Shown: positions 19,624 through 56,720 of the stretch, piece by piece
How the letters are laid out: each line of letters starts with the position of its first letter
How positions within the stretch are numbered: position 1 is the first letter of the stretch
Assembly: GCF_021532375.1 (NCBI RefSeq)
Contig: NZ_JAKGAP010000002.1
Coordinates: 124,001 to 188,000, forward strand
Direction: 5' to 3'
DNA: 64,000 bases
Source of the DNA: Paenibacillus alkaliterrae
Lineage (GTDB): Bacteria; Bacillota; Bacilli; Paenibacillales; Paenibacillaceae
Position numbers and translations under genes: made by a program
The notes under the pieces: generated by a model
What the model saw: the letters and a program-made list of their open reading frames with translations, nothing else
What the model was told of the DNA's origin: nothing
The model's database searches: none

Positions 19624-19689
19624 ATAGGCGATTATAAAACCGTATGAGTTATATAACATAGATCAATAATAAATGTATTTGAAAAAATC

Positions 19690-19714
19690 GGGCGCCCCTT
19701 ACGGGGCGCCCTTT
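19690..19714. terminator. Strong terminator after the GH18 gene (bidirectional sequence)
   Basis: GGGCGCCCC and GGGGCGCCC form a perfect 9-bp stem with a TTAC loop. TTT follows on the plus strand, and GATTTTTTC on the minus strand. Confidence 0.85.
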
Positions 19715-19967
19715 CATGGGAGAGGAGAAACCGGACGAAGAGCTTATGGGGAAACGTAAGTCTTCTCCGCGGTTGTCTACGACATCTTGCGACGCCGATA
19801 AATTTATCTTGTCCGCTTTGAGGGGAAATATACATTTTTAGGACAACATTTATTTTTGCTCCACCGGAATTGATTACTAGGACATGTTTTTCGACACGCT
19901 TCCGCTTTATTAACAATGGGATTCTATGGTACGATAGTCGGTAACGAGAGAAAAGGGGGCAATTGCA

Positions 19968-52474: not shown

Positions 52475-54580
52475 ATGGCAGATTCTTTAGTTATCGTCGA
52501 ATCACCAGCTAAAGCCAAAACGATCGGTAAATATTTAGGCAGCAAGTACATCGTTAAGGCATCTATGGGACATATTCGCGATTTGCCGAAAAGCCAGATC
52601 GGCGTCGAAGTTGAAAATGATTTTAATCCTAAATACATAACCATTCGCGGTAAAGGCAGCGTCCTGAAGGAATTGAAGGATGCCAGCAAAAAAGTGAAAC
52701 ATGTCTTTCTCGCAGCCGATCCGGATCGCGAAGGCGAGGCGATTGCTTGGCATTTGGCACATTACTTGGAGCTGGATGAAACAGACACCTGCCGCGTTGT
52801 ATTTAATGAGATTACGAAGCAAGCGGTTAAGGATGCGTTCAAAACGCCGCGAAAAATAAACATGGATCTCGTAAACGCTCAGCAGGCCAGACGAATTCTG
52901 GATCGGCTAGTCGGTTATAAAATTAGTCCTTTGCTATGGAAAAAAGTGAAGAAGGGCTTGTCCGCCGGCCGCGTACAATCGGTGGCTGTAAAGCTCATAA
53001 TTGACCGGGATAATGAGATTGACGCTTTCGAGCCGGAGGAATATTGGTCAATTACGGCTAAGCTTAGTCATTCCGGAATTACCTTTGATGCGAAGTATTA
53101 TTCGATTAACGGGGAAAAGCGCGAATTGGGCAAGGAAGCGGAAGTGCAGGAAGTGCTCAGTGCGATGAAGGGCAGTCCATTCACCGTATCCGAGGTTAGG
53201 GAGAAGGAGCGTCTCCGTAATCCGGCGCCGCCGTTCATTACAAGCTCACTGCAGCAGGAGGCCGCTCGAAAAATAGGCTTCCGGGCCTCAAAGACGATGT
53301 CAGTCGCGCAGCAGCTGTATGAAGGCGTTGAGCTGGGCAAGGAGGGAACGGTCGGTTTAATAACCTATATGAGAACAGACTCTACCCGAATCTCGCCTGT
53401 AGCCCAGGAGGAAGCGAAGGAGTACATTACGGACAAATACGGCGCTGAATTTGTGCCGGAACAGCCGCGCGTTTACACAAAGAAAAATAGCAACGCCCAG
53501 GATGCACATGAAGCTATCCGGCCGACGTCGATTCTTCGTGATCCTGAATCCATGAAGCCGTTTCTAAGCAGAGATCAGATGCGATTATATAAGCTTGTAT
53601 GGGAAAGGTTCGTATCGAGTCAGATGCAATCGGCTGTGCTTGATACAATGACGGTAGATTTACAAGCGGGCGATACGATATTTAGAGCTAATGGCTCCAA
53701 GGTGAAGTTTGCCGGTTTCATGAAGGTGTATGTAGAAGGCAATGATGACGGAACGGTTGAGGAGCATAAGTTTTTGCCGCCACTCGCTGCGGGCGATGTC
53801 ATCAAAGCTGAAACCATTGATCCCAAGCAGCACTTTACGCAGCCTCCGCCGCGTTATACAGAAGCAAGGTTAGTGAAGACGCTTGAGGAGCTGGGCATAG
53901 GACGTCCGAGTACATATGCCCCAACGCTGGAGACGATTCAGAAGCGCGGCTATGTGGCGATGGAAGAGAAAAAGTTTATGCCAACGGAGCTTGGCGATCT
54001 TGTTATTCAGTTGATGGAGGAGTTTTTCCCGGAAATCCTTAATGCGGAATTTACGGCCAATATGGAAGGTAATCTCGACCATGTGGAAGAAGGTACGGAG
54101 GATTGGGTAAAAGTACTTTCGAATTTTTACGAAACCTTTGAGAAGCGTTTAGAAGTAGCCGAGGATGAAATGAAGGAAATCGAGATACAGGACGAAGTAT
54201 CCGATGAACTATGCGAGAAGTGCGGCCGCCATTTAGTGTACAAAATGGGCCGTTTCGGTAAGTTTCTCGCCTGCTCGGGCTTTCCGGATTGCCGCAATAC
54301 GAAGCCGATCATCAAAGACATCGGCGTTACGTGCCCGAAATGCGCGGAAGGCAAAATTATCGAGCGACGCAGTAAGAAAGGCCGGATCTTCTACGGCTGC
54401 GATCAATATCCGGGCTGCGATTACGTATCATGGGACAAACCGACAAACAAGCCTTGTCCTCAATGTGATTCGAAGCTGGTAGAGAAGCGCAAACGAAGCG
54501 GTGTAAAGCTAAACTGTCCGTCTTGCGGTTACTCCGAAGAGGTGCCTGACGAAGAAGATCAAGATATCGAGAACAGCTAA
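52475..54580 (+). CDS. topA: DNA topoisomerase I
   Basis: The 701-residue enzyme has a Toprim domain ([30 protein letters not shown]) and the active-site Tyr298 in [14 protein letters not shown]. The C-terminus carries three zinc-ribbon repeats of the CxxC...C type ([46 protein letters not shown]). It relaxes negative supercoils. GGAGGCGCC precedes the ATG. In B. subtilis trmFO follows directly; here about 820 bp of repeats intervene. Confidence 0.98.
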
Positions 54581-54663: not shown

Positions 54664-54687
54664 GTCCTCCCTCTAAACAGGGAGGAC
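54664..54687. repeat. Perfect inverted repeat after topA
   Basis: GTCCTCCCT and AGGGAGGAC (9 bp) flank CTAAAC. There is no T run; it could be an mRNA stabiliser or an element end. Confidence 0.75.
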
Positions 54688-54796: not shown

Positions 54797-55198
54797 AAGC
54801 GTGTCCCTAAGGGACGAAAGCGAGCACAAAGCCAACCAATCACCAGAGCGCCTCTGCTTCGCCAACGTTACTCAGGAACAGACGGCACAGGCGTTCTAAA
54901 TGGAAGCGTGTCCCTTAGGGACGAGGGCGAGCACTACCCAAACGGATCACACAACCGCCTCTGCTTCTCATACGTTACTTAGGAACGGGCGGCACAGGCG
55001 CTTAAAAAAGGAAGCGTGTCCCGCAGGGATGAAAGCGAGCACAAAGCCAACCAAACACCAGAGCGCCTCTGTTTCACCAACGTTACTCAGGAACAGGCGG
55101 CACAGGCGAGTCAAAAAGGAAGCGTGTCCCCCAGGGATGAAAGCGAGCGTTACACAATAGAAACTCACAACCGTCTCTGCTTCTCCTACGTTATTCCA
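54797..55198. repeat. Four tandem ~108-bp repeats (A-B-A-B) with a conserved mini-hairpin
   Basis: Units start at 54797, 54904, 55012 and 55120 (spacing 107, 108, 108); the fourth is truncated near 55198. Each opens with AAGCGTGTCCC, then a 3-nt loop and GGGAC/T, GA and GCGAGC, and shares CCTCTG-x-TTC and ACGTTA further on. Units 1 and 3 are most alike (CACAAAGCCAACCAA), as are units 2 and 4 (CACAACCG...TACGTTA), so the array looks like a duplicated ~216-bp dimer. The stem GTCCC/GGGAC keeps pairing in all units, through G-U in units 3 and 4. Confidence 0.88.
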
Positions 55199-55231
55199 AT
55201 TGCGGGTGTCCAGAGGGTGCAACCCTTGGGG

Positions 55232-55251
55232 CCCTCCCTTGGAAGGGAGGG
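55232..55251. repeat. GC-rich perfect palindrome
   Basis: CCCTCCCTT and AAGGGAGGG flank GG. It lies at the junction between the 108-bp and the 21/22-bp repeats. A further GGGAGGG follows at 55255-55261. Confidence 0.8.
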
Positions 55252-55266
55252 TTTGGGAGGGTTCGA

Positions 55267-55370
55267 AAGCCTTTGAAGGTTTGGATAGAAGCCTTTGAAG
55301 GTTTGGTGGAAGCCTTTGAAGGTTTGGATAGAAGCCTTTGAAGGTTTGGTAGAAGCCCTCGAGGGTTTGG
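55267..55370. repeat. Five tandem 21/22-bp palindromic repeats upstream of trmFO
   Basis: Units start at 55267, 55289, 55310, 55332 and 55353, with spacing alternating 22, 21, 22, 21. The first four read AAGCCTTTGAAGGTTTGG plus 3-4 variable bases. The fifth reads AAGCCCTCGAGGGTTTGG, where T-to-C and A-to-G changes keep the arms complementary. The array ends 30 bp before the trmFO start codon. Confidence 0.9.
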
Positions 55371-55400: not shown

Positions 55401-56720
55401 ATGTCACAACCGCAAAAAGTAACAGTCATCGGAGCAGGTCTTGCAGGCAGTGAGGCTGCATGGCAAATCGCATCACAAGGAGTTCCTGTTGTCCTTTATG
55501 AAATGCGGCCCGTTACGAAAACGCCGGCCCATCATACTAATCAATTTGCCGAGCTAGTATGCAGCAATAGCTTGCGCGCAAACGGCTTGACTAACGCGGT
55601 AGGCGTATTGAAAGAGGAAATGCGACAGCTGGATTCGCTTATATTAAGCTGTGCCGATAAGCATGCCGTGCCTGCGGGCGGAGCGCTTGCTGTAGACCGC
55701 GACGGGTTTTCTGGCGAGGTAACGCTGAGGCTCCAAGAGCATCCGCTGGTAGAAGTGCGTAACGAGGAAGTGACTGAAATTGCTGCCGACGGCATCGTGG
55801 TTATAGCTACGGGTCCTTTGACGGCACCGGGACTCTCTTCTCAAATCCGCGAGCTGCTTGGCGAGGAATATTTTTATTTTTACGACGCCGCTGCGCCAAT
55901 CGTGGAAAAGGATTCTATAGATATGAACAAGGTTTATTTGGCTTCCAGATATGATAAGGGGGAAGCTGCCTACTTAAACTGTCCGATGACGGAGGAAGAG
56001 TTCGACATTTTCCATGAAGCGCTCACGACAGCAGAAACGGCGGAAGTGAAGGATTTTGAGAAAGAAATTTACTTCGAAGGCTGTATGCCGATTGAGGTCA
56101 TGGCGAGCAGGGGAAAGCAAACGGTGCTGTTTGGACCGATGAAACCGGTAGGGCTCATTAATCCACATACGGGTAAGCTGCCACACGCCGTCATTCAGCT
56201 GCGCCAGGATAATGCCGCGGGCACGCTCTACAACCTGGTTGGCTTCCAGACTCATTTGAAATGGGGGGAGCAGAAACGCGTATTCTCGCTAATTCCAGGA
56301 TTGGAAAATGCCGAATTCGTTCGATTCGGAGTGATGCACCGGAATACGTTTATCAATTCTCCGAGATTGCTAAAGCCTACCTATCAGCTAAATAATCGTG
56401 ATACTCTTTTTTTCGCCGGTCAAATGACTGGCGTAGAAGGCTATGTGGAATCGGCCGCATCAGGACTAATTGCTGGTATTAATGCTGCCAGATTAGCCCG
56501 CGGTCTGGAGCTGGTAGTGTTACCGGAGCAAACGACTTTAGGAAGTATGGCTAACTATATAACAACGGCGGATTTCAAACATTTCCAACCGATGAACGCG
56601 AATTTCGGATTGTTCCCGCCGCTTGAGAAAAAGATTCGAAACAAAAAGGAAAAGAACGAAATGATTGCAAGCCGTGCTCTTGAAGGCATTGAGCAATTTA
56701 AACGGGAACATTTGCAATAA
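55401..56720 (+). CDS. trmFO: Folate/FAD-dependent tRNA (uracil-54-C5)-methyltransferase
   Basis: The 439-residue flavoprotein has the FAD-binding motif [41 protein letters not shown] with a catalytic Cys, and the C-terminal [18 protein letters not shown]. It makes ribothymidine at position 54 using methylenetetrahydrofolate. An AAGGG lies rather far upstream of the ATG. The gene directly follows the repeat array, which may affect its expression. hslV follows with no xerC between them. Confidence 0.97.

Follow-up and report, generated by a model that had tools for sequence, protein, structure and literature searches.

The four tandem repeats lying between topA and trmFO in the window (the whole stretch of 64,000 nt of Paenibacillus alkaliterrae DNA that was analysed) are, by their sequence, the front part of a non-coding interspersed element family found in many Paenibacillus relatives. 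The best explanation overall, which we place slightly on the probable side, is a modular non-coding intergenic element, usually located within same-strand gene pairs. The copies compared show three modules: one to several units of ~70-115 nt, each opening with a small hairpin; an end module, in which hairpin 1 is followed by CCCTCCC-loop-GGGAGGG-TTT-GGGNGGG; and zero to many mini-hairpins repeating the same layout in small. In this layout the third tract copies the purine arm in mirror order. It is likely that selection maintains the capacity of one strand to form a purine-motif triple helix. A fuller account, in which the third strand changes with the base pair that it would cover and this three-strand covariation marks a selected single-strand purine-motif triple helix, lying in sense between the genes of conserved operons and having repeatable mini-triplex hairpins behind it, is put forward tentatively.

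In the window, the four head-to-tail units described by an earlier sequence-only reading were recovered at the same starts, with spacings of 107, 108 and 108 nt (Table 1), each opening with GTCCC-nnn-GGGA(C/T), where the final T of units 3 and 4 gives a G-U pair on the plus strand. The array is beyond chance: its TRF score is 474, and unit 1, used as a query, matched 14 genomic locations, of which four are those of the window. In addition, the 5' hairpin pattern, with up to 3 mismatches, occurs at 15 genome places, and its reversed-pattern control at 0. Regarding the proposed A-B-A-B order, unit 1 agrees with unit 3 at 92% of the first 77 nt, but units 2 and 4 agree at 78%, the same as units 1 and 2 (78%); as 2 and 4 are no closer than 1 and 2, the duplication of a dimer is only half supported. 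Inside the window the small hairpin does not covary: its loop varies and one pair becomes G-U. Among relatives, the stem of this 5' hairpin is mostly invariant, with few compensated forms (GTTCC/GGAAC in 3 and GTCCT/AGGAC in 2 of 225 stems, a set for which many loci had been retrieved by a pattern that required the GTCCC stem). The interval first proposed for the array, 54797..55198, holds a real repeat but stops short: the array is the front part of an element that runs on to about 55370, just ahead of trmFO, and the end module and the mini-hairpins fall beyond the interval. The names topA and trmFO presumably fit the protein sequences, and a trmFO match was present in 51 of 51 same-genus genomes.

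Table 1. Features of the topA-trmFO region, in positions of the window
Feature	Position	Strand	Remark
topA, gene upstream of the element	52475..54580	+	name from the sequence-only reading
Unit 1 of the 5' module	54797..54903	+	107 nt; 5' hairpin 54803-54815
Unit 2 of the 5' module	54904..55011	+	108 nt; 5' hairpin 54910-54922
Unit 3 of the 5' module	55012..55119	+	108 nt; 5' hairpin 55018-55030, closing G-U pair
Unit 4, terminal, continues into the end module	55120..55207	+	5' hairpin 55126-55138, closing G-U pair
Conserved end module, GTCC through last G of third tract	55208..55261	+	9 genome copies, this one at G000:C82:179208-179261
Hairpin 1, CCAGAGGGT-GCA-ACCCTTGG	55210..55229	+	covariation across relatives, 107 distinct segments
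Hairpin 2, CCCTCCC-TTGGAA-GGGAGGG; Watson-Crick part of the proposed triplex	55232..55251	+	
TTT linker, then the third tract GGGAGGG, which mirrors the purine arm	55252..55261	+	
Five mini-hairpins, CC..GG-TTT-GG or CCC..GGG-TTT-GGG	55267..55370	+	period 21-22 nt
trmFO, gene downstream of the element	55401..56720	+	name from the sequence-only reading

The most conserved part of the element is the end module, and not the hairpin to which the earlier reading had drawn attention, and its signal points to a triple-stranded fold. Hairpin 1, with the consensus CCAGAGGGY..RCCCTTTGG, covaries across 107 distinct segments, where position 8 is G-C in 76, A-T in 6 and T-A in 5, and position 9 is C-G in 73, T-A in 12 and G-C in 5. 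Behind it, the third tract repeats the purine arm of hairpin 2 in mirror order. This arrangement is that of class II purine-motif intrastrand triplexes, the fold itself being a predicted one. The window module, having a 7-nt stem, a 6-nt loop and a 3-nt linker, falls within the search rule given in the available passages of Holder et al. (2015; PMC4666352), with stems of 6-15 nt and loops of 1-6 nt; the first loop is longer in some relatives.

The dependence of the third base on the outer pair was counted on 218 fetched modules, all of them distinct and having TTT as the linker; they were chosen regardless of the third base, and their order is pyrimidine arm, purine arm and, at the 3' end, third purine-rich arm. 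A separate set of 327 candidates was not used for this count; 88 of them have another linker, and the set was scored partly by purine-arm likeness and leans towards the triplex. When the outer pair is C-G, the third base is G in 188 of 188 modules, and when it is T-A, the third base is A in 26 of 26; the four broken outer pairs (2 C.A, 1 T.G and 1 G.G) keep G. The outer triad is consequently an allowed one in 214 of the 218. Over the middle T-A pair, the third strand carries A in 108, T in 104, C in 5 and G in 1, which is A or T in 212 of 218. The code for purine-motif triplexes consists of G*G.C and A or T*A.T triads (PMC4666352, in the passages available), and the rule found here corresponds to it, with a mirror geometry that fits reverse-Hoogsteen triads. 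Exceptions are present when modules with any linker are considered, with one each of C-G-T, C-G-A, C-G-C and T-A-G in 214 modules, as well as an unfetched module (G003:C13:114814) having T beside TTT over a C-G pair. Seventeen of the loci were chosen partly for being T-A-A or C-G-G, which raised the T-A-A count from 18 to 26 and left the coupling unaffected. The end modules listed in the genus, family and order scans were fetched in part, the other rows being read by eye.

The 26 T-A-A modules occupy six gene sites, counting locus L194 within icd-mdh. The module tree needs 11 changes of the outer pair and as many of the third base, and in its best version the 11 independent pairs are all concordant; because only 1 of these 11 stands on supported branches, it is possible that one old T-A-A version was copied between sites. 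Clean C-G-G and clean T-A-A modules were not found at one site in the same orientation, and a candidate switch of this kind in genus g23, suggested by two modules sharing part of hairpin 1, was dropped because their flanking genes differ. The mini-hairpins follow a related pattern, as the G-runs before and after TTT tend to match: 2-2 in 79, 2-3 in 19, 3-2 in 2 and 3-3 in 52 (Fisher p 5e-22, with 152 of 223 occurrences treated as independent, the 71 excluded ones having a single G on one side or runs of another length).

The same G-tracts can be read in another manner, with GGGAGGGTTTGGGNGGG as a G-quadruplex element, folding as RNA or DNA in competition with hairpin 2, and the mirror look being a result of equal G-tracts. 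Most listed modules indeed fit G3N1G3N3G3N1G3, the C-G-G form is a perfect G-quadruplex motif (four G3 tracts with short loops), equal G-runs around TTT also suit it, and the middle base would be a free one-nucleotide loop. However, C and G are rare at that base (6 of 218), and the motif is lost in the T-A-A form, where 26 of 218 modules swap two inner G for A on both sides of TTT. These swaps always pair with a C to T change in the opposite arm, and nothing in a quadruplex would call for A as the second base each time, which leaves this reading improbable. Slipped Watson-Crick pairing that involves the third tract was rejected, as the covarying base lies at the wrong end, the end of the tract that would pair staying G in 202 of 214.

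Regarding RNA, the plus-strand structure that the sequence-only reading suggested, in what would be a putative transcript, is modestly supported by the 5' hairpin, where G-T mismatches exceed A-C (28 vs 11 in 288 copies, p 0.009, counted regardless of relatedness), but hairpin 2 displays no RNA-strand preference (G-T 4 vs A-C 6). An element working purely as RNA would be an intercistronic mRNA structure, REP- or BOX-like, guarding the upstream mRNA from decay or tuning the downstream gene, with a third tract that pairs elsewhere or binds a protein. Besides the 5' hairpin bias, this would agree with the strand bias of the copies, with the covariation of hairpin 1, whose position 4 is G-T in 54 of 107 segments, and with the window end module, which has a better RNA fold than 193 of 200 shuffles (7 of 200 being as good). 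Meanwhile, the window's units, folded singly, are mostly no more stable than shuffled sequences, and RNA pairing leaves the mirror-order match of the third tract unexplained, since a slipped Watson-Crick partner would be the nearly constant other end of the tract. Together with the indifference of hairpin 2 to the strand, these points make a purely RNA element unlikely. Purine-motif triplexes are described as forming in DNA and as absent in RNA (PMC4666352, available passages), and therefore the triplex would need exposed DNA.

A known RNA family was rejected, as Rfam had no match to the element at the gathering score, only matches far below it. Two terminator-like sites were seen on the minus strand only, no more than in shuffles, and an intrinsic terminator was discarded; no promoter-like site was seen in a search for sigma-70 promoters.

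The non-coding nature proposed by the earlier reading was borne out by the relatives. None of 144 end modules, 17 of them at a locus edge, lies inside a gene predicted by codon usage, using a small gene finder of our own that gave topA, trmFO and the next window genes as expected, and the unit spacings are even over the three frames (38/35/32). A coding tandem repeat had to be considered because of an 86-aa ORF (54900-55160) over units 2-4; however, the gene finder left the stretch from topA to trmFO free of genes, the first spacing is 107 nt and relatives use all frames, so that frame use, gene calls and intergenic placement reduce this alternative to a negligible probability. This ORF made of repeats is likely to be annotated as a spurious small protein, and the repeat family can give rise to such proteins in general.

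The neighbouring genes were classified relative to the element at 80 sites, by majority vote per site, resulting in 51 ++, 15 +-, 7 -+ and 7 --. The 51 same-strand sites against 7 opposite ones (p 2.4e-9) were counted regardless of shared ancestry, as were the 30 against 8 (p 4.7e-4) of an earlier set of 52 sites, drawn from 115 arrays with 18 edge cases excluded from the site counts. As L194 also belongs to icd-mdh, its mdh being uncalled, the 80 sites become 79. The icd-mdh site is a mixed cluster among them, with 6 T-A-A, 2 C-G-G and 1 C-A-G modules in two orientations, and a few sites carry copies in both orientations. The same-strand excess therefore indicates that the element tends to share the reading direction of the adjacent genes, and its position inside a topA-trmFO transcript would fit this bias for gene pairs.

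Some particularities were seen at the icd-mdh site. In L214 (G013), a C-A-G end module between icd and mdh is opposite to both genes, unlike the T-A-A modules that this site has in other genomes, and in L050 and L141 a 15-bp perfect inverted repeat, CAACTGTTGAGCGTG..CACGCTCAACAGTTG, encloses the 5' hairpin.

Similar units are present in related genomes. A blastn-like search with the whole array was positive in 12 of 60 genomes, own included, all of the same genus. The end module, present in 9 copies in the window's genome, was detected by its pattern in 25 of 51 same-genus genomes, in 22 of 68 family genomes (7 of 19 genera) and in 43 of 119 order genomes, with the own genome counted and the reversed-pattern control at 0 in each case; in the order scan, it occurs in 7 of 35 genera, belonging to two of the families drawn. 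The 5' hairpin pattern was found in at least 114 stretches of named genomes, and the 80 matches listed are all titled Paenibacillus or Bacillus sp. FJAT. In the own genome, several end modules lie between genes that read as operon partners, which we take to be ribE-ribBA, nudF-spoIIM, ddl and a small gene, and icd-mdh.

The history of single sites was followed at topA-trmFO, for which 30 loci were fetched from 51 same-genus genomes, one of them cut by a contig end. The other 29 loci, read by eye, include 11 with an end module, that of L299 being confirmed by the genus scan, 2 with fragments and 2 with mini-hairpin relics, indicating that the site is old and often lost; as the module is missing in most relatives examined, it is not essential there. 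Four units were seen in the window's genome alone among these loci, the relatives printed having at most two recognised. The same gene pair can also carry a copy across genera, as T-A-A modules are located between purF-purM-like genes in g23 and G088 (g32), and between aroE-yhbY-like genes in P. tyrfis, P. ehimensis, P. elgii and G088, all four gene names being our presumption. P. terricola (G126) has 36 end modules in one genome, which likely reflects the recent expansion of one subfamily. Most modules in 18 printed regions of it share a near-identical 55-nt end module with a varying upstream stretch, the 3' border being sharp after the third tract and the 5' border blurred.

These near-identical modules, together with the patchy presence, suit the main rival, a repeat that is selfish or passive (MITE-, REP- or BOX-like) and has no host role, which spreads and gets lost and whose structure serves its own copying alone; BOX repeats have been interpreted as parasitic (Croucher et al. 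2011; PMC3049150, available passages). Nevertheless, identical gene sites are occupied across genera, no transposase family shared beside the copies was seen when the 35 largest clusters of proteins from the named loci were inspected, and the plasmid collection gave only two P. cellulosilyticus records, with 14 places. Phage cargo was rejected, the phage search being without a match. On these grounds, a repeat serving only itself is considered rather unlikely. Y1_Tnp, the domain of the Y1 transposases (RAYT) that mobilise REP, has one match in the genome, on an 81-aa frame.

At locus L183 (G000:C35, 2276-3481), two elements point apart, with a 162-aa transposase remnant between them that we presume to be ISXO2-like, and inverted element pairs at this gene pair recur in relatives. 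In L156, L128 and L155, variant end modules carry CCCTCCCAAACCCTCCC or a near form in place of the usual sequence, and their third tract pairs within one long Watson-Crick hairpin.

Concerning known systems, the element would resemble modular BOX elements combined with BoxC/PIT triplex motifs. REP/BIME of enterobacteria and bcr1 of the Bacillus cereus group are also short structured intergenic repeats, often transcribed between genes, and the likeness is one of description only. With TMECO/BoxC/PIT, as presented in the available passages of Holder et al. (PMC4666352), the end module shares the pyrimidine, purine and reverse-Hoogsteen arms on one strand, the G*G.C and A(T)*A.T triads with a 3-nt linker, and an intergenic, multicopy occurrence that is patchy between close relatives and sometimes forms inverted pairs. 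It differs in its 7-nt stem, CCCTCCC, compared to the 9-nt CCCTCNCCC, in belonging to a far larger modular element, in its hosts (Paenibacillus relatives here, proteobacteria for TMECO) and in its strong strand bias and conserved gene sites, as those passages report no strand or operon bias for TMECO. The window's CCCTCCC-N6-GGGAGGG-TTT-GGGAGGG does not match the TMECO consensus CCCTCNCCC-N3-6-GGGNGAGGG-N3-GGGNGAGGG, and the 51 same-strand against 7 opposite sites, in same-direction gene pairs, are at variance with its reported lack of bias; because of both, the end module is not TMECO/BoxC/PIT (PMC4666352, same passages).

BOX of Streptococcus pneumoniae (Croucher et al. 2011; PMC3049150) is likewise modular and interspersed, with a variable number of internal modules, predicted RNA stem-loops and ORFs arising in large copies, and is likened here by its build and not by its boxA/B/C sequence; unlike the present element, it has no triplex layout mentioned in the available passages. 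Terminal inverted repeats and target duplications are reported for BOX (PMC3049150, same passages), and the empty sites at topA-trmFO are too diverged for a target duplication to be read. No published description of the element in Paenibacillus, or of two of its core strings, was found among openly licensed texts, and this repeat family of Paenibacillus relatives, absent from Rfam, is newly named.

How the triple helix preferred here would act is a more doubtful matter: possibly, though with less than even likelihood, the element works in cis at times when the plus strand is exposed, be it by transcription or by replication. RNA polymerase, past the upstream gene, would transcribe the element, the 5' hairpins and hairpin 1 folding in the RNA, while the displaced plus DNA strand would fold into the triplex and keep the bubble open. 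The triplex would then slow or pause the polymerase on its way from the upstream to the downstream gene, and in this manner the expression of the two genes could be set separately. The passage of the polymerase may be tuned by the number of units and mini-hairpins, a number that would change through tandem duplication, as in the window.

Counts of intrastrand triplex motifs exist for many genomes, and whether any such motif is selected to fold is an old question. For the E. coli motif, Holder et al. (PMC4666352) describe no triplex signal in duplex DNA and no in vivo protection, and they found no sign of a stable triplex in cells; triplex stems of 6-7 nt are also common in scrambled genomes, according to the same source. 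The family provides natural mutants, which are the C-G-G form, the T-A-A form and those with a broken pair, and their gene sites are known; therefore both the fold and its effect on the neighbour genes are directly testable.

Other structures were seen around the element and elsewhere in the window. Shortly past the topA stop, a hairpin, GTCCTCCCT..AGGGAGGAC, is located at 54664-54687, and a form of it was recognised by eye in 27 of 30 topA-trmFO loci, element-free genomes included, possibly being a separate conserved topA 3' structure. In L299 (G035), the same intergenic region holds a different tandem array, with the core ACGAGCTTAAATGCTC. Finally, a ylbH leader RNA (RF00516) is present at 19680-19772 of the window, with 78.8 bits.
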